Below, in pieces: positions 3 through 26,428 of a stretch of DNA of 38,585 nucleotides (the first letter of the stretch is position 1; the number at the start of each line of letters is the position of its first letter). The DNA is taken from positions 1 to 38,585 of IMG/VR virus record IMGVR_UViG_3300031963_000388, one strand, 5' to 3'. The translations under genes were made by a program, and so were the position numbers. This DNA comes from a virus. Under the pieces are notes generated by a model. That model saw only the letters and a program-made list of their open reading frames with translations. It searched no databases and was not told where the DNA came from.

Positions 3-3000
3 GCATTATACAGCACACTCCGAGCAACATTTCCCGATGCAGAGTTTTCACGCGATGGCGTTGACGCCTCAAAGAAAGCCTCCGAAGCCCTCCTCGCCGC
101 AGGCATCCCCGGCATCCGCTACCTCGACGGCGGCAGTCGCTCCGAAGGCCAAGGCACATACAACTATGTCGCTTTCGACGAGAACCTCATCAAGATTACC
201 GGCGAGAACGGCCAACCGGTCACTATGCAGGACGCGCAAGCTGTTTCGACTGATACCGGCGCGACCAACTACAGCATCAGCGTTCAGACGACAGCAGCCA
301 ACATTCTTGCTGACCGATTAAAAATTCCAACAACTCTCGGGAAAGAATATGCAGGCAGGCAGATAATACCAATTGAAGCAGACCTTACTGCTGGGGGTGG
401 ATCGTTTACACAAAAGCCAGCACAGGGCGGGCCAGCGTTTTCAGTCATCCCAGAATATTTTAACGCCGGTGTTGCGTGGGCTGCGGCAAAAGACGGTTTC
501 TGGACAGGAAAGCTTAACCTTGCTCGCGAAAGTGGTGCGATCTACATCGGCAAAGACGGACGGGAGAAATTCATGGTTGCCCCGTATGCCATGAAGCAGG
601 ATTCCCACATCAGCAACCCAACCGTTGCTGGGGAAAAACTCGCCGAGGTGGCAAGGTATGTTGCCGAGGGGCGCATCTCCCCAGAGCAAGAAAAAGGACT
701 TTCCGATATTATTCTAAAAGCGGCGGGAAGCATTTCTGAAAAAGCCGGGGAAAAGATTGAGCAACTCACCAATGAAATCCCAAAACATGAAACGGCACTT
801 GAAAAGCTAAAGAAGAAAATTGCAAAGGAAGAAAAAGCTCTCAAAGCCAAAGCTTCCGCTTCCGGGAAGGAACTTACCAAGCAAGAGGCAAAGGCATTGG
901 AAAAAGCACTCAAGGAACTTAATAAGCCTGCCGATGAAATTGCTGACCAGTTAGCCAAAGCGGTCAAAGACCTAAAAAAGTTCAAGACAACCAAAACTAT
1001 GGCGGACGGTCTAAAGACCTTCCCAACCACATTTGTCGCCGGTCAGTTCGACCAATACCTTGCCAAGCTATCTTTTGAGCAACGCGCCTTCATTGCCGAA
1101 AAACTTTCATCGGCAGCAGCGGAAAAACTCGGCGCTCCGCCCATGGAGCAAATCCGTCGAGCAACCCTTGATGAATCTTTTTCCGGGACTGAAAATCTTT
1201 CACTCATTTCGCTTCTCGAAATCGATGTGCCTCGACTTGAGAAAGGGCTGAAAGACAAGACGCTGACCGCAGAATCCTATAAAGTTACGCCACACAACTC
1301 ATACAACTCTCTCGCACCGGGTCGCATCGTCGCGATGTTCCGAACTCCTATCCCGTATGCGTTGGCGTTTCCCGACATCAAGCAAGGTCTGTCGAATTGG
1401 GCAAAAGCCAAAAACAAAGCAGACAACAATCACGGGTATTACCTAAAAGGGAAAATCCCCGAGGGGGTTCCGAAGACGCAAGAGATCACCTCACAGATGC
1501 TTAACCTCTGGAGTGCATCGCAAACCAACTTGCGCCCGAACCAAGCCAAGGCAATTGTCGCCGCCCTCAACCAAAAGTGGACAACCTTCGACAAACCTCG
1601 GCAAGCTGGATTAGCTGAATTCACCCGCGCCATCCGCAACAATGATGCGGCGGTGACGCTCACTCAATATAGCGAGAAAGAAGTTTCGCAGTTGCTCAAA
1701 GCCGGAACCATGAAGGTATACCGGCTCGGCGAAATGAATGTGTGGTTTGCTCTCAAGCGTCCGACCGGCGATGAATTTGACCCGGGCGATTCCACGAAGG
1801 ATTGGACGATTGTTTCGGTGATCAACAACGAAAAAGCTGCCCCCGGGGTTCTTCCACTCATCATGTCCAAAGCCCTCGCCGAGGGCGGAACTCGCCTCGA
1901 TTGCTATGCAGTCAAAAGCGCAAAATACCCGGAAGGATTGCTTCCCACCCTTTACGCTCGGAGCGGATTTGAGCCGACTGCAAATTACCAGTTCGACGAA
2001 TCCTATCACACCGAACCCGGGAAGATGGGCGAACTGGAGAAAGTGTGGCATAGCCAAAACTGGGATGGACAAAATAGACCTCCACTCGTATACATGAAGT
2101 GGAATCCCGAACTTCATGCAAACATTGGAGCCAACGCCAGAGACACAAACTCACGATCCGTCATCGGTGAATCTCGATCTGCAAAATCGGATGAGGGCGG
2201 CATGGCCGAAGGATCGACTGAAATCTCTGGGGGACTCTCAAGCGGATCGTCTGTCAGCATGGGTGGCGAGGGACAGGGCGAGCAAGGGGGACGAGTATCT
2301 GACGGTTCCAGTCCTACAGGGGATGCTGGAAATGCTCGAAACATACTACCCCGAGGAATCGAGCAGATCGTTGCCGATTTAGGCAAACTTAACGATTATC
2401 AGTTACAGGCACTTGGCCTCACGAAATCAGAGGTCGATGATGCGATAGGCATTTACAACGACACTAATTCGGTAAGCTACTCCATCGCCTCGCAGTCCGA
2501 GATCGACCGGGTGAACAAGGCGCTCGGCGGCATGAACCGAGGCCCGGACGCCCGGATCGCAGTCTACGAGCGGGCCAAGCAAAAGTTCTCCACGCTCATC
2601 CAAAACAACCAGCAGGCGCTCGACAACCTCCGCGCAGGAACCGTGTCGTTCCGCCGGACGCAACTCCTGCAAGCCCTCGGTGAACTGGACGCGATCCTTT
2701 CAATCTTCCCGCCGGACATTCGCGGGCGTGTAGGCGGATACACCCGGCTTGCAAGCATCGCACCGCACGATGTCTTCAAGGACGGCGAGAAAGTGAGCGA
2801 GGTCAGCGGAATGAACGGCGCGATCATCTCGGCGTGGATGCGCGAAGGATTAAGCATCGGGCCTGCCGGTCAACAGACCGAACTTCCTCCCGGCTACACC
2901 GCCAAGGAAAACCTTGGCACCGCTCGCGCCGACCGCGCTATTGCGGATTTCTTCAAGAAGCGGATTGAGATGATCGACCGCGAACTGGAAAAGACCCTCC

Positions 3001-5862: not shown

Positions 5863-6404
5863 CCAAGTTTCTCGCACAGATCGCCGCCAAGGAAGTCGGA
5901 GTCCGAGAAATCGGCGGCAACAATAACGGCGAGCGGATCCGCGATTACCAAGAGGCGACCAACCTTGCTCCCTCCGCTTGGCCTTGGTGCGCGGCTTTTG
6001 TGGATTGGTGCATTCGCGAGTGGTTGATGACTCCCGAGGTCGTGTCGTGGCTTAACCTTCAAGTTTCCACGCCGGAAGAATGGCGACCGAAGACGGCGCT
6101 CGCCTACGGGTTCATCGGATGGGCGAAAAGCCGACCGAAAACCACAATCATCCTCCACGACCGCGACATGGCCCGCCCCGGCGACATCGTGGTTTTCGAT
6201 TTTAGTCATGTCGGCATCATCGAGTCCGAATCCGGTTCGCAGATTGTGACGCTGGAAGGCAACACCAATGGGCGGGGAGATCGCGATTCCGAGCTAGGAG
6301 ACGGTGTCTGGCGCAAGACTAGAGCAAAAAATATTGCCCGAAATTTCATCAGAATTCGACCTGTTGTGCCACAAGCTGCCACAAGAAGCGCAAGTAATTC
6401 ATAA
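5859..6404 (+). CDS. Endolysin, CHAP/NlpC-type peptidoglycan hydrolase
   Basis: The 181-residue protein has the pattern of a CHAP-like cysteine peptidase. The nucleophile is probably Cys44 in PWCAAFVDWC, the His is His117 in DFSHVGII, and an Asn/Asp-type residue is at EGNTN (Asn135). RPGDIVVF, just before the His, is also typical. Such enzymes cut peptide bonds of peptidoglycan at host lysis. There is no signal peptide, so release would depend on the holin upstream. The start overlaps the lipoprotein gene (ATGA). The last codons contain two TGCCACAAG repeats that look like an integrase arm, so the gene's 3' end overlaps the attP region. Confidence 0.88.
   Translation: MTKFLAQIAAKEVGVREIGGNNNGERIRDYQEATNLAPSAWPWCAAFVDWCIREWLMTPEVVSWLNLQVSTPEEWRPKTALAYGFIGWAKSRPKTTIILHDRDMARPGDIVVFDFSHVGIIESESGSQIVTLEGNTNGRGDRDSELGDGVWRKTRAKNIARNFIRIRPVVPQAATRSASNS
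6367..6385 (+). repeat. Arm-type repeat pair TGCCACAAG, left of attP core
   Basis: Two direct copies of TGCCACAAG, at 6367-6375 and 6377-6385, are phased about one helical turn apart inside the 3' end of the endolysin gene. Two further copies lie at 6587-6604 on the other side of the tRNA fragment. This is the layout expected of arm-type integrase or excisionase binding sites. Confidence 0.6.
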
Positions 6405-6418
6405 TCAGAGGCAGTAAA

Positions 6419-6472
6419 GCGACTCAAAATCGCGTATCTCACGATGTGTCGGTTCGATCCCGACCGCCGGTA
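6419..6472 (+). other. attP: attP core: 3' part of a tRNA-Leu(CAA) gene
   Basis: The sequence matches the 3' half of a class II tRNA. The anticodon stem is GCGA/TCGC around loop CTCAAAA, with anticodon CAA at 6425-6427. A long variable arm follows (~6434-6447), then a T arm GTCGG-TTCGATC-CCGAC (6448-6464), the 3' acceptor strand CGCCGGT and discriminator A at 6472. No 5' half precedes it, so it is not a complete tRNA gene. Phage integrases often recombine at tRNA 3' ends, and the phage copy restores the host tRNA. The adjacent integrase gene and flanking TGCCACAAG pairs support this as the attachment core; the exact crossover limits cannot be seen. Confidence 0.8.
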
Positions 6473-6486
6473 ATCCCTTCAACGAA

Positions 6487-6527
6487 AGCCCGCAGAAGCC
6501 CATAAGTAAAGCCTCTGCGGGCTTTTT
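6487..6527 (+). terminator. Rho-independent terminator
   Basis: A 10-bp stem, AGCCCGCAGA (6487-6496) with TCTGCGGGCT (6514-6523), encloses a 17-nt loop and runs into TTTTT (6523-6527). It follows the tRNA-Leu fragment, so it may be the host tRNA terminator carried in the attachment identity block, or the terminator of the lysis operon. Confidence 0.85.
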
Positions 6528-6586
6528 CGTTTCTGGACTTCGTTGAACTTCATTGACCCGAATTGGACAAACTAGGGGTTGCAAAA

Positions 6587-6604
6587 TGCCACAAGTGCCA
6601 CAAG
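6587..6604 (+). repeat. Arm-type repeat pair TGCCACAAG, right of attP core
   Basis: Two adjacent direct copies of TGCCACAAG (6587-6595 and 6596-6604) lie just before the preferred integrase start. They match the two copies at 6367-6385. If integrase or excisionase binds here, it could also autoregulate the integrase gene. Confidence 0.6.
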
Positions 6605-6616
6605 CTATGTCTTGTC

Positions 6617-7627
6617 ATGTCCTATAAAGTCTCAATCGATTCTTCGCGGAACACCTCTCCGTGGGTTTTGACGATCTCAAAATCGACGGCAGGAAAAAGA
6701 ATCCGGCGGTTTTTTTCGACGGAATCGGAAGCGTGGATGGAAGGCGGGCGGCTCATGGCGCAACTCAAGGAGCGCGGAACGATCTCCCTATCGGAGGCGG
6801 CGGAGGGAATCACGGTGGAAAAAGCGGTGGCGCTTTTTAATTCCAATTACTCGGACTACTCAAAATCCCATCGCGAGAAGGTTGAGAAAGTGACGCGATG
6901 GATTGCCGAGGGGTTGCCGGGGACGCTCAAGGAGGTGACGCCGCTTCGGTGCTTGAATTGGTTCAAGAGCATCGAGGGAGTCTCGACTTCGCGGGCGACA
7001 ATTTATCGATACGCCCGGATGTTTTTCAATTGGTGCGTCAAAACCGATTTCATCGACAAGTCGCCGCTCCGTGCGGTGGTTTGCCCAGATTCCCTTCCCG
7101 CTCGAAACATCCTCGCGCCGGAAGAAATGGAGGCGATCTTGAGCGACGAGCAAATGAGCGACCACCTCCGGGCGTCGATCTTGCTTGGAGGGTTCGCCGG
7201 TCTTCGCACGGTGGAGGTGATGCGGCTTCGCTGGGAGGATATCGAGAAGGGGCAAATCTACATCGGCCCGGAGGTGGCCAAGCAAAAGAAAAAGGGCAAC
7301 CGCGAGCGTCTGGTGGACATGACCGAGCCTCTCAAGAAACGGATGGCGTTTTTTTCCAAGAGGCGCGGCCCGCTAGTTCCCGTGCTGGAAACCGATTTTT
7401 ACGAGGAGCGCAGAAAGCTAGTGAAGCGGCTGCGGAGGGCTGGGGCGGTGAAGTGGAAGGAATTTCCGAAGAACTCCCTTCGCCACTCGTTCGCGACCTA
7501 CCACCTCGGCAAAAGCGGTAACCCGGGAACGACTGCCTACCAGATGGGAACCTCGACCACTTTAGTCATCAACACTTATTCCGTGCCTGCCCGCAGAGCC
7601 AATTGGAAAGCCTTTTGGAGGATTTGA
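6617..7627 (+). CDS. int: Tyrosine recombinase (phage integrase)
   Basis: From ATG 6617 the product is 336 residues; a TTG at 6563 is in frame, but that extension would cross the TGCCACAAG repeats. An N-terminal SAM-like core-binding region precedes the catalytic domain. Visible residues are Arg197 (GLRTVEV), Arg289-His290 (SLRHSFATY) and the nucleophile Tyr321 (INTYSV). The position before the second Arg, usually His in HxLR, is Asn. The usual LGH box reads MGTS, so two histidines are replaced; related integrases tolerate the first change. It integrates and excises phage DNA at the tRNA-Leu site immediately upstream. The next small gene starts 3 nt after its stop. Confidence 0.9.
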   Translation: MSYKVSIDSSRNTSPWVLTISKSTAGKRIRRFFSTESEAWMEGGRLMAQLKERGTISLSEAAEGITVEKAVALFNSNYSDYSKSHREKVEKVTRWIAEGLPGTLKEVTPLRCLNWFKSIEGVSTSRATIYRYARMFFNWCVKTDFIDKSPLRAVVCPDSLPARNILAPEEMEAILSDEQMSDHLRASILLGGFAGLRTVEVMRLRWEDIEKGQIYIGPEVAKQKKKGNRERLVDMTEPLKKRMAFFSKRRGPLVPVLETDFYEERRKLVKRLRRAGAVKWKEFPKNSLRHSFATYHLGKSGNPGTTAYQMGTSTTLVINTYSVPARRANWKAFWRI

Positions 7628-7630
7628 CCT

Positions 7631-7822
7631 ATGCCCTACGCCAACAAAAAAACGCAGCGGAAATTCATGGCGAAGCAATACACAAAAAAGTATGCGACCG
7701 ATGATAAATTCAAGGCGGCGGAGCGCGACCGCAAGGCGGATTGGTATCAGCGAAATCGCGAGAAGGTCATTGCAAGAGTTTTGGAAAATCGGGCCAAAAA
7801 AACGCGAGGCCCGAAAAAATAA
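7631..7822 (+). CDS. Small basic protein of unknown function
   Basis: This 63-residue protein is very rich in Lys and Arg (NKKTQRKFMAKQYTKKY, then a basic helix, ending KKTRGPKK). Small proteins beginning MPYA and rich in Lys, Arg and Tyr are common in phage early regions, sometimes as fragments of HNH-type or DNA-binding proteins, but no catalytic motif is visible. It starts 3 nt after integrase and is probably co-transcribed with it. Confidence 0.6.
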   Translation: MPYANKKTQRKFMAKQYTKKYATDDKFKAAERDRKADWYQRNREKVIARVLENRAKKTRGPKK

Positions 7823-7887
7823 TTTCGCCCGCAAACCCAGTCTGCAAGCCGATGTCAAGTGTTTTTTTATGGTAGGTGATCACCCCA

Positions 7888-7918
7888 TTGAAAATTATTT
7901 CTTGTGCGGTTTTAGTAA
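7888..7918 (+). promoter_or_regulatory. Candidate promoter overlapping operator O1
   Basis: A -35-like TTGAAA (7888-7893) lies 19 nt before TAGTAA (7913-7918), which falls inside the GGTTTTAGTAACC site. The arrangement would drive the ribbon-helix-helix gene at 7943 and place the operator over the -10 region. The spacer is slightly long, so this is tentative. Confidence 0.4.
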
Positions 7919-7920
7919 CC
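7908..7920. promoter_or_regulatory. Operator-like site O1, GGTTTTAGTAACC
   Basis: This is the first of three identical 13-bp sites (also 8246-8258 and 8318-8330). The ends form an inverted repeat, GGTT/AACC, typical of a dimer-binding operator. It lies 22 nt before the ATG of the first ribbon-helix-helix gene. Confidence 0.65.
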
Positions 7921-7942
7921 TCGGCTAGGAATCTTCACCGTC

Positions 7943-8191
7943 ATGCCAAACCAACACTCCACCGACAAAGAGGTCATCGGATTTTACATTCCGAGAACCT
8001 TGGCGGCACGGGTTCGCAAAGCTGCGAAAACCCGTGGGCTGACTATAACAGCTTTTATTGAAGAAGTCCTAACTCATGCCACTCGCACAACGACCCTCGC
8101 CCCGGAAGACTACCTCGCCATCGCCGAAGCAACCAAAAGAGCTATTGGCCGTGTGGCTTCCAAGAGAACTCGTCGCAAGAGTAAGGGTTGA
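7943..8191 (+). CDS. Ribbon-helix-helix DNA-binding protein (candidate regulator)
   Basis: The 82-residue protein has the CopG/Arc pattern. A short strand (VIGFYIPR, residues ~11-18) is followed by helix A (TLAARVRKAAKTRG) and helix B (TITAFIEEVLTHAT), then a basic C-terminal tail. Such proteins bind DNA as dimers through the paired strands and usually repress their own operon. It sits downstream of the first GGTTTTAGTAACC site and upstream of two more, so it is a good candidate to bind them and act as the lysogeny or excision regulator. Its 3' end overlaps the next gene in another frame. Confidence 0.7.
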   Translation: MPNQHSTDKEVIGFYIPRTLAARVRKAAKTRGLTITAFIEEVLTHATRTTTLAPEDYLAIAEATKRAIGRVASKRTRRKSKG

Positions 8192-8282
8192 GGCGCGGGC
8201 CGGTAAAAGACCAACCAGCAGGCAGGTTGAATTTTTTTTGGAAAAGGTTTTAGTAACCTCCAAGGGAGGTAAATGCATATAA
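8076..8282 (+). CDS. Second ribbon-helix-helix-like protein, overlapping the first
   Basis: This 68-residue ORF also has an RHH pattern in its C-terminal part: a strand (LLAVWLPREL), helix A (VARVRVEARAGKR) and helix B (SRQVEFFLEKVL). It overlaps the previous gene by 116 nt in another frame, and the N-terminal ~22 residues in the overlap look unstructured. Translation may really start later, at TTG or GTG codons near the LLAVW segment. Its 3' coding sequence contains the second GGTTTTAGTAACC site. Two consecutive RHH proteins could be a repressor and antirepressor pair or a duplication. Confidence 0.55.
   Translation: MPLAQRPSPRKTTSPSPKQPKELLAVWLPRELVARVRVEARAGKRPTSRQVEFFLEKVLVTSKGGKCI
8227..8256 (+). 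promoter_or_regulatory. Candidate promoter overlapping operator O2
   Basis: TTGAAT (8227-8232) is separated by 18 nt from TAGTAA (8251-8256), which lies inside the second GGTTTTAGTAACC site. This repeats the arrangement at 7888-7918 and would serve the excisionase-like gene at 8332. Confidence 0.4.
8246..8258. promoter_or_regulatory. Operator-like site O2, GGTTTTAGTAACC
   Basis: This is an identical copy of the 13-bp site, 338 bp after O1 and 72 bp before O3. It lies within the 3' end of the second RHH-like gene. AAA precedes both O2 and O3. Confidence 0.65.
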
Positions 8283-8317
8283 TGCAGGTGCAGTATAAGC
8301 AAGTTTTTATTGCTAAA

Positions 8318-8330
8318 GGTTTTAGTAACC
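8318..8330. promoter_or_regulatory. Operator-like site O3, GGTTTTAGTAACC
   Basis: This is the third identical copy. It ends 1 nt before the ATG of the excisionase-like gene, so occupancy would be expected to block transcription or translation start. Confidence 0.65.
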
Positions 8331-8331
8331 C

Positions 8332-8571
8332 ATGAACACAACAGACGAGATCACAACAAACGAGGCGGCGGATCTGCTGCATTGCTCGACACGAACCATC
8401 TACCGGGCGATCCGCTCCCGCGAACTGGAGGCTTGCAAGCCTTTTGGGAATGCGGGCGGTCACCGGATATCCCGTGCGGTGCTGGAGGCATGGTATGCCG
8501 ACCGCCGGAAGGCGACGATGAACCGGAACGCCGCGCAGTCGGTCGCCATGAAGAAGAGGAGGGCCGTCTAA
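8332..8571 (+). CDS. Excisionase-like HTH protein (MerR/HTH_17 type)
   Basis: The 79-residue protein has a helix-turn-helix of the excisionase/MerR type: ITTNEAADLLHCSTRTIYRAIRSREL, then a wing with GGHRISRAVLEAWY. Such small proteins bend DNA at att sites or control promoters. It lies directly after the third operator-like site, in the same gene set as integrase, so an excisionase (Xis) role is likely. A very basic tail (MKKRRAV) follows the domain. It overlaps the next tiny gene by TAATG. Confidence 0.8.
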   Translation: MNTTDEITTNEAADLLHCSTRTIYRAIRSRELEACKPFGNAGGHRISRAVLEAWYADRRKATMNRNAAQSVAMKKRRAV

Positions 8572-8672
8572 TGGAAACGATCCTTCGCTGCATCGATTAT
8601 GCGTTCGACTTTATCTGGATGATTTCGCCGGTTGTCATACTGGCGGTCTGCGCGTGGAGGTTGGCGAAATGA
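8571..8672 (+). CDS. Tiny membrane peptide
   Basis: This 33-residue ORF (METILRCIDYAFDF then a hydrophobic segment WMISPVVILAVCAW and a basic end) has one predicted transmembrane helix. It is coupled on both sides: TAATG with the HTH gene and ATGA with the next ORF. No function is recognisable. The tight coupling is the main reason for listing it. Confidence 0.45.
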   Translation: METILRCIDYAFDFIWMISPVVILAVCAWRLAK

Positions 8673-8821
8673 GCGCCTCCTTCGCTATCGCTCTTGCGAT
8701 CCTCACGCTGGGGTCGTGCTTCGCGTCCTACAACCTCGGCCAGCGAAACATCATGCGCCGGATGCGCGACATCCAAGAGAAACGCCGCCGCTGGGCGGAA
8801 TGGGAAGATTTCGAGGACTAG
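8669..8821 (+). CDS. Small membrane-anchored protein
   Basis: The 50-residue ORF starts with a hydrophobic helix (FAIALAILTLGSCFASY), followed by a basic, Trp-containing helix (MRRMRDIQEKRRRW) and an acidic end. It overlaps the upstream tiny gene by ATGA. The layout is an N-terminal anchor with a short cytoplasmic helix; function unknown. Confidence 0.5.
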   Translation: MSASFAIALAILTLGSCFASYNLGQRNIMRRMRDIQEKRRRWAEWEDFED

Positions 8822-8839
8822 TCCTCACCACAAGAAAGC

Positions 8840-8867
8840 GCCCCGAAGGACGGCAATCCAACGGGGC
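8840..8867 (+). other. Small hairpin before the recT-like gene
   Basis: GCCCCG (8840-8845) pairs with CGGGGC (8862-8867), with a possible inner GGA/TCC pairing. No T run follows, so it is unlikely to be an intrinsic terminator. It may be an mRNA structure or processing site in the 80-nt gap before the recombination genes. Confidence 0.35.
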
Positions 8868-8901
8868 AAAGTTAAACCACAAGAAAAGCAGTAATAACAA
8901 A

Positions 8902-9687
8902 ATGAGTAATAATACACAACTAGCACAAGTCAACATTCCATTAACGGAAATGCAGGAGATGGCGAAGATCGGCGTTGAGTCGAATTTCTTTGGCATCAAG
9001 AAACCCACCGAGGCGCTCGCGCTGATGCTGATTGCGCAATCCGAGGGGAAGCACCCCGCCACGGTCTTTAGCCAATATCATGTGATCCAAGGTCGCCCGG
9101 CCTTGAAGAGCGATGCAATGCTCGCCCGCTTCCAACAAGCCGGTGGGCGGGTTGAGTGGCACACGCACACCAACGAAAAAGTGAGCGCAACATTCATCCA
9201 CCCGCAAGGTGGTTCCTTGACCGTGGATTGGGATATGCCACGGGCGAAGGAGGCTGGGTTGACCGGCAAGGACAACTACAAGAAATTTCCCCGGCAGATG
9301 CTGCGTGCGCGGGTGATCAGCGAGGGAGTGAGAGCCGTATACCCCGGAGTCCTGCAAGGAATGTATACACCGGAAGAGGTGCAGGAGTTTGACGCTCCTC
9401 GCCCGGTTCGTTCCGCAAAAGTGGAGGTCGTCGAGGTGAAGACCGAGCCGGTCGTGGAAGTGCCGGTCGTGCAGATCAAGATGGCAACGAAGTGGGCAGA
9501 CGAATGGCCCGCCGAGATCGTCGAGGCCGAGGCAGCGGTGAATGCGTTCCTCGTTTCTAAAGGCCAGATCAGCGAGGGGCAAACCTTCCGCGACATCACC
9601 GATGAGAACTACCGCAAGCGGGTTTTGGCTAATACCGCCAAGTTTCTCGCAGCAGTCAATGCGGCTTCGCAAAAGGAGGCAGCATAA
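8902..9687 (+). CDS. RecT-like single-strand annealing protein
   Basis: From ATG 8902 the product is 261 residues. Its core resembles RecT-family phage recombinases: SNFFGIKKPTEALALMLIAQSEG, a segment with HVIQGRPALKSDAMLARFQQAGG, then the C-terminal core with KFPRQMLRARVISEGVRAVYP. These proteins anneal complementary single strands in phage recombination and repair. The acidic tail is variable. The next gene overlaps by TAATG and encodes a PD-(D/E)XK nuclease, giving the usual exonuclease-plus-annealase pair. Longer upstream start codons exist but would overlap the tiny membrane genes. Confidence 0.82.
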   Translation: MSNNTQLAQVNIPLTEMQEMAKIGVESNFFGIKKPTEALALMLIAQSEGKHPATVFSQYHVIQGRPALKSDAMLARFQQAGGRVEWHTHTNEKVSATFIHPQGGSLTVDWDMPRAKEAGLTGKDNYKKFPRQMLRARVISEGVRAVYPGVLQGMYTPEEVQEFDAPRPVRSAKVEVVEVKTEPVVEVPVVQIKMATKWADEWPAEIVEAEAAVNAFLVSKGQISEGQTFRDITDENYRKRVLANTAKFLAAVNAASQKEAA

Positions 9688-25561: not shown

Positions 25562-26428
25562 ATGGCAGCTATCTCATTCCCGTCCTCACCGACTAACAAC
25601 CAAGTCCACACCGTTGGCAGCCGCAGCTGGCAATACAACGGAACCGCATGGAAACTCGTCGCACGCACAACCGATGCAGTCGTCGAGGGTTCCAGTAACC
25701 TCTACTACACCAACGCCCGCGTCGCCGCCGCCCCAGCCGTCACCGGCTTGGAAAGCCGCGCAACCGCGATTGAATCGGACATCACCGCTATCGAGTCGGC
25801 AGCTTCGACGCTTGCCGGTCGTGTGACCACGGCAGAAGGCGGTCTTTCTTCCGAAATCACCCGAGCCACCGCAGCCGAAGCCGCCCTCGGAACTCGCATT
25901 GACAATGTTCTTTCCAATGTGGACGGTGCCGCGCTCGACTCACTTACCGAGGTTGTCAGCGCCTTCCAATCCGCCGACAGCAACCTCAATGGCGCAATCA
26001 CCAACCTCGCCTCCAGCGCCTCCAGCGCCCTTGCGACAGAGACCTCGGCGCGTCAATCCGCCGACTCGGCTTTAAGCGGTCGTTTGGACACAGCCGAATC
26101 GGACATCAATGCGATTGAGTCCGCCGCGACAACTCTTGCTGGCAGAGTGACTACTGCCGAGGGTTCCCTCAGCAGCCACACCTCCGCCACCAACAACCCG
26201 CACTCTGTCACTAAAGCGCAGGTTGGTTTGGGCAATGTGGACAACACCAGCGACGCCAACAAACCCGTTTCGAGCGCCACCCAATCCGCCCTCGATGCCA
26301 AGCAAATCAAAGATGTCGTTTCCACCTCCGCGCCTTCGCACACCGAGGGTCTCCGCTGGATCGACCCCACCGACATGAGCGAATACCTCAGCTACGGCGG
26401 AGCGTGGGTCGAGATCGACAAACAATAA
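25562..26428 (+). CDS. Tail fibre protein with coiled-coil repeats
   Basis: The 288-residue protein opens with FPSSPTNNQVHTVGSRSWQYNGTAWKLV, shared with the next gene. SNLYYTNARVAAA follows, then coiled-coil repeats of the form ESDI-AIESAA-TLAGRVTTAEG (around residues 76-101 and 178-203). HSVTKAQVGLGNVDNTSDANKP is the classic phage fibre segment, and the end (GLRWIDPTDMSEYLSYGGAWVEID) is Trp-containing. Such proteins trimerise and attach to host receptors. The near-perfect internal repeats could recombine and change fibre length. Confidence 0.8.
   Translation: MAAISFPSSPTNNQVHTVGSRSWQYNGTAWKLVARTTDAVVEGSSNLYYTNARVAAAPAVTGLESRATAIESDITAIESAASTLAGRVTTAEGGLSSEITRATAAEAALGTRIDNVLSNVDGAALDSLTEVVSAFQSADSNLNGAITNLASSASSALATETSARQSADSALSGRLDTAESDINAIESAATTLAGRVTTAEGSLSSHTSATNNPHSVTKAQVGLGNVDNTSDANKPVSSATQSALDAKQIKDVVSTSAPSHTEGLRWIDPTDMSEYLSYGGAWVEIDKQ

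Follow-up and report, generated by a model that had tools for sequence, protein, structure and literature searches.

We found that a viral DNA record of 38,585 nucleotides, hereafter the window, contains three copies of one 13-bp site placed around two overlapping genes of the ribbon-helix-helix (RHH) type; both genes are under selection, the layout is conserved, and the first site overlaps a promoter-like sequence. We consider it probable that the module, which belongs to a virus of Verrucomicrobia-type bacteria, is the operon of an autoregulating RHH repressor in a temperate phage, with downstream operators that hold the excision and early genes in check. Judged by comparative analysis, the module is very probably a genuine on/off switch under its own control, and this switch likely maintains viral dormancy. 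The lysogeny switch proposed in the original prediction, which was made from the DNA letters, is plausible and partly supported, and the observation behind it proved much stronger than in its first form.

The three identical 13-bp sites of that prediction were recovered exactly. GGTTTTAGTAACC occurs on the plus strand at 7908..7920 (site 1), 8246..8258 (site 2) and 8318..8330 (site 3), and no further copy, exact or with one mismatch, was found in the 38.6 kb. Each is a predicted operator in which paired half-sites flank a short centre (GGTT-TTAGT-AACC, plus lineage variants). Known RHH operators likewise have half-sites with a 5-bp centre, and this fit counts in favor of a repressor-operator reading (PMC3325190). 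In a control set of 1000 random 950-bp windows drawn from other loci, none contained a palindrome of 13-14 bp in triplicate, and 2.6% contained one in duplicate. All three sites had been thought to precede small genes. This holds for sites 1 and 3, but site 2 lies inside the 3' end of the second RHH gene, where the prediction had itself noted an encoded operator. An occurrence of GGTTCCAGTAACC at 25688, weighed as a further site, falls in a tail-fibre-like gene and was taken as chance, and a terminator-like hairpin before site 2 of the window failed, by eye, to hold in the relatives.

The two RHH genes overlap in different frames, as had been predicted. RHH1 (7943..8191, plus strand, 82 aa) is the predicted operator-reading repressor, and RHH2 (8076..8282, plus strand, 68 aa) overlaps it by 116 nt in the +1 frame. 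RHH1 matches RHH_1 (E 0.006) and the Arc-like PHROG_582 (E 6e-5), and RHH2 matches RHH_5 (E 0.001). Although these E-values are low, the Pfam scores of both window proteins fall below the cut-offs; membership of the RHH (MetJ/Arc/CopG) superfamily, which is recognised by profile from an N-terminal beta-strand and the two helices after it, is indicated by the PHROG_582 match and by relatives that pass the RHH_5, Arc and RHH_1 cut-offs, among them RHH2 orthologues in loci L105 (RHH_5) and L122 (Arc). The closest solved sequences to the RHH1 profile are 2kel (E 3e-4) and 2k9i (E 2e-3). AlphaFold single-chain models of RHH1 and RHH2 were poor (pLDDT 63 and 60), and a fold search gave no significant match; the helices that the models predict with low confidence, at residues 18-30 and 35-47 of RHH1 and 30-41 and 49-62 of RHH2, are those expected of the RHH fold.

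Outside the overlap, RHH1 shows a pN/pS of 0.11. The private part of RHH2 has a pN/pS of 0.23 in the +1 frame, with no stop in 22 distinct sequences, compared with 1.81 and 0.64 in the other two frames. Within the overlap, frames 0 and +1 are open in all sequences and frame +2 is closed in all. Judged from sequence, RHH2 is a genuine gene; a tandem-RHH fusion made by frameshift was also considered.

According to scans of its open reading frames, the window further encodes an integrase, RecT, an exonuclease, a DnaC-like loader, a terminase, a head-tail adaptor and tail genes. The tyrosine-recombinase integrase (6563..7627, plus strand, core from ~6647; PHROG_1 E 2e-30, PF00589 E 1e-7) lies upstream of the module here and in nearly all freshwater relatives. 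Tyrosine recombinases usually carry the motifs HxLRH and GHS; the window integrase reads NSLRH and MGTS (7470-7590), so that the two usual catalytic histidines seem to be replaced. Between the integrase and RHH1 stands a conserved 63-aa ORF (7631..7822, plus strand) with 67-86% identity across 22 relatives and no family match in Pfam/PHROG-type profile scans. Downstream of the module, a 79-aa Xis/MerR-like HTH protein (8332..8571, plus strand; HTH_17 E 3e-12, PHROG_66 excisionase/regulator E 4e-9) starts one base after the end of site 3. Its relatives were found by tblastn within 20 fetched loci, likewise downstream of the module, and as a single-sequence query it gave just one weak match. The order integrase, 63-aa ORF, RHH1/RHH2, HTH, RecT is common to most viral relatives. 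A 20-codon ORF at 8273-8335, which has a ribosome-binding-like GGGAGG and runs through site 3 into the start of the HTH gene, was rejected as a gene, being absent from the relatives by eye. No CI-like protein was found among the window ORFs scanned, in line with the original prediction. As for an induction route, neither a protease domain nor an antirepressor was visible, PHROG scans of the window ORFs giving no antirepressor match; Rfam gave no match in 6400-9000.

The original prediction was to fall if relatives kept the genes without the sites. Instead, all 26 RHH1 relatives in viral contigs keep sites 1 and 2. Site 1, spelled GGTTWTAGTAACC, stands at -32 to -35 from the RHH1 ATG in 26/26, and site 2 stands at exactly +303, inside RHH2, again in 26/26. 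A third site lies at +366 to +374 in 21 of the 26; in two others (L070, L072) it is ~1.2 kb further downstream, in L063 and L064 it is missing, and in L066 it is degenerate. From +303 onwards, L070 and L072 carry a third RHH-like ORF (MKPCRTPLSIRLEKQLAIWAKREAKRTG...) after site 2. When 12 relative records (16.6-40 kb) were searched whole, 11 contained exactly three GGTTNNAGTAACC matches, all in or near the module, and the twelfth, a 16.6-kb fragment, contained two, both of the module. An exact search of viral contigs for AAAGGTTTTAGTAACC gave 52 contigs with a match, about half of which belong to the module by context; the other half, unrelated chance or structural-gene matches, were left out.

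Some 20 divergent loci of Verrucomicrobiota, one of them in an Akkermansia phage, show the same layout. They were collected by profile searches of Verrucomicrobiota genomes, a scan of bacterial contigs, a phage record and one more viral scan; scanning viral sequences with the L122-type RHH1 gave no match. In these loci RHH1 usually starts with MPNQ or MPSQ and ends in a C-terminal LTxEDY motif, and RHH2 usually overlaps it in the +1 frame. One palindrome precedes RHH1, another lies in the 3' end of RHH2 and a third follows 26-72 nt later; a few loci have two of the three sites only. Weak RHH1 profile matches lacking repeated palindromes (for example L129, L130, L133, L135, L138, L139 and L142) were excluded from the module count. 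In L140, L143 and L151 (genomes G765 and G028) two or three RHH1-like genes stand in tandem, as if the module had been duplicated. One Akkermansia-type locus, L113, carries on the minus strand an antisense HTH-looking ORF at ~-739 to -365 from RHH1, and such lineages may have a further regulator.

The letters of the operator vary by lineage (e.g. GGTGGTGAACCACC, GGTGTAGTACACC, GGTTTGACAAACC), with GGT...ACC in all and three positions kept. The window clade shares GGTTWTAGTAACC with L081, L119, L121 and L157. The other spellings are GGTTWAAGTAACC in the Opitutus locus L082, GGTGGTKAACCACC in the Akkermansia phage CP084202 and its relatives, GGTGTASTACACC in L120, GGTGTTAAACACC in L126, GGTGTAAGACACC in L128, GGTGTTAACACC in L158, GGTTTRACAAACC in L122-L125, GGTTTAACAAACC in L140, L141 and L151, GGTTNAACCAACC in L150, GGTGATAATCACC in L115, GGTTGCCGTCAACC in L136, GGTGCAATGCACC in L144 and GGTGGYTAGCCACC in L148. 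In Akkermansia-type genomes GGTGGTNAACCACC occurs almost only at the module. The window and L119, whose RHH1 proteins are 35% identical, nonetheless share one 13-mer, and it is read in different RHH2 frames, as KVLVT in the window and as QGFSNL in L119, which argues for selection on the DNA word rather than on the peptide.

Two of these loci extend the picture. The Opitutus contig, with host-type genes beyond its integrase, carries five sites; the further ones, ~7-14 kb from the module, lie 0 and 20 nt before two non-module genes and 103 nt before a third ORF. Together with the integrase that adjoins the module in the window, as it does in nearly all freshwater relatives, this contig points to a temperate phage that occurs integrated. 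In the unannotated record CP084202.1 (L105), a SieB superinfection-exclusion gene (2398-2880, minus strand; PF14163, E 1.5e-19) lies antisense, with the third operator on one side and the HTH gene on the other.

At site 1 the window has the promoter-like arrangement TTGAAA (7888-7893), 17 nt and TTTAGT (7911-7916), which spans 7888..7916 on the plus strand, scores 9/12 and has its -10 inside the site; this replaces the proposed TAGTAA as the better reading of the -10. The matching position reads TTGACA in L081 and TTGACG...TATAGT in L119. Across lineages, site 1 overlaps a sigma70-like promoter (at least 9/12) in 14 of 20 loci, compared with 1% of random positions, and covers the -35 (TTGACA within GGTTTGACAAACC), the spacer or the -10. 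Of the claim that at least two sites overlap promoters, only the part concerning site 1 stood; at site 2 the match beginning with TTGAAT is weaker (8/12), and good matches there are rare in other lineages.

In Arc-type RHH proteins the DNA-facing residues of the strand alternate, and by alignment to the strand we predicted residues 11, 13 and 15 of RHH1 to face the DNA. Residue 15 covaries with the operator arm (8 sharing pairs against a shuffle mean of 3.2, p 0.01), residue 11 does so more weakly (p 0.04), and residue 13 and the RHH2 positions do not, in a small, post hoc set of 17 lineages that were scored by hand after being seen and that, where related, are not independent. Four R15 lineages all have GGTGT/ACACC, and two Q11/W15 lineages have GGTGG/CCACC, one of them (L148) being closer overall to an R15 protein. 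In the freshwater clade the RHH2 strand residues vary and the operator is constant. Since the arm covaries with RHH1 residue 15 and with no RHH2 position, the sequences favor RHH1 over RHH2 as the protein that reads the sites.

The conserved sites, the recurrence of the layout under differently spelled palindromes, the overlap of site 1 with a promoter-like sequence and the RHH1 covariation all count for a repressor operon, and we infer from them binding, repression, the role in lysogeny and the direction of control. RHH1 would bind the 13-bp operator, probably as two dimers, one per half-site, with the half-sites 5 bp apart. At site 1 it would cover the core promoter and repress its own RHH1-RHH2 operon. 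From sites 2 and 3, between the repressor and the excision/recombination genes, it would keep those genes low in the lysogen, and loss of the repressor would free them. RHH2, the second RHH protein expressed alongside, may act as a partner or modulator and leave the main reading of the sites to RHH1. Both the SieB gene beside the Akkermansia-phage module and the Opitutus sites before other genes would fit a repressor that silences its own promoter and protects the genes downstream. Counting against this reading are the poor structural models, the small and partly dependent set of lineages behind the covariation, the divergent loci that have no integrase within 1.5 kb upstream, the lack of a visible induction route, and the missing or degenerate site 3 in L063, L064 and L066.

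Sites 2 and 3 might act on undetected promoters, by looping or as elongation blocks, and we tentatively propose, as a special form of this repressor operon, a single-promoter switch working by roadblock or looping. In this form neither site has its own promoter. Repressor bound there would halt polymerase that started at site 1 once it has passed the repressor genes, possibly with help from a T-run just upstream, so that repressor is made and the downstream genes stay silent. Promoter matches at the 9/12 level or better were seen at just 5% of sites 2 and at 12% of sites 3, and these sites always lie at the RHH2 end and before the next genes. However, the scores there are above random, and promoters at both sites may be missed, as Verrucomicrobial promoters are poorly known. 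A T5-T8 run precedes site 2 by 6-13 nt in nearly all lineages; in the window it is a T8 (8232..8239, plus strand), 6 nt before the site, encoding FFL of RHH2. The run uses TTT codons, against the window usage for Phe (39% TTT, 61% TTC). The window has a further T-run at 8304-8308, just upstream of site 3, but in some lineages none is present at that site. A blocked elongation complex has a precedent in C.Kpn2I, whose blocking site falls within the gene that encodes it (PMC6237814), and the spacing of sites 1 and 2, ~310-420 bp, would allow looping. The fuller version, a one-promoter lysogeny switch with an overprinted RHH pair, an elongation block before the lytic genes, and lineage-specific letters and residues that define separate immunity types, we regard as rather doubtful.

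As the integrase gene lies immediately before the module and a Xis-like gene follows it, the repeats might also be arm-type or excisionase-binding sites for integration/excision and the RHH proteins recombination factors. We think this improbable: site 1 lies within a promoter in 14/20 loci, two of the distant Opitutus sites stand directly before other genes, and several loci bearing the layout have no integrase within 1.5 kb upstream. That the sites are conserved as promoters only, for a sigma70-like or phage-specific polymerase, is slightly less probable still. In the GGTTWTAGTAACC lineages the centre can indeed serve as a -10 (TATAGT/TTTAGT), but differently spelled palindromes fall at the -35, the spacer or the -10 across lineages, there are just three copies per genome, and sites 2 and 3 mostly lack a promoter. 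Control of the toxin-antitoxin or plasmid copy/partition type is very unlikely; RHH proteins are common as antitoxins and Cop/Par proteins and the gene overlap recalls toxin-antitoxin pairs, but here both proteins are RHH with no toxin-like partner, and the neighbours are HTH, RecT and exonuclease genes, with no rep or ParA gene following.

As far as our searches went, prophage control is undescribed in Verrucomicrobiota, including apparent Akkermansia gut bacteria, and the module offers a compact candidate repressor for their prophages. In A. muciniphila YL44, two prophages can be induced (PMC8008629). The module's specificity code would be readable from sequence, as RHH1 strand residues against operator arms, and a gene that already overlaps another appears to have a regulatory DNA site overprinted on its end. 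Should the immunity role prove true, phage immunity groups would be predictable from sequence.

A literature search of partial coverage gave no description of such a module, and several known systems resemble parts of it. The solved sequences closest to the RHH1 profile, 2kel and 2k9i, we take to be SvtR of SIRV1 and ORF56 of pRN1; to our knowledge these archaeal virus/plasmid regulators do not have this layout. C.Kpn2I shares with the module a site inside the regulator coding region, and there the elongation roadblock is proven (PMC6237814), whereas here it is a proposal; moreover, C.Kpn2I is a restriction-modification controller, not a phage RHH pair. CopG of pLS1/pMV158 is a small RHH repressor that autoregulates its own operon (PMC5717011), with operator half-sites around the 5-bp centre TTGAG (PMC3325190). 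The module is similar in having a small RHH regulator gene in an operon and half-sites with a 5-bp centre; unlike CopG, it has no downstream rep gene or other replication initiator in the operon, which is followed by HTH_17, small ORFs, RecT and exonuclease, its three operators are dispersed, and it has a second, overlapping RHH gene.

Arc and Mnt of the P22 immI region are phage RHH repressors, and the likeness extends to the proteins, with RHH1 matching the Arc-like PHROG 582 and RHH2 resembling Arc. No antirepressor controlled by the pair was found among the window ORFs scanned with PHROGs. The module differs from P22 immI in showing no antirepressor gene beside the pair, in the +1-frame overlap of its two genes, and in the one operator type that they share.
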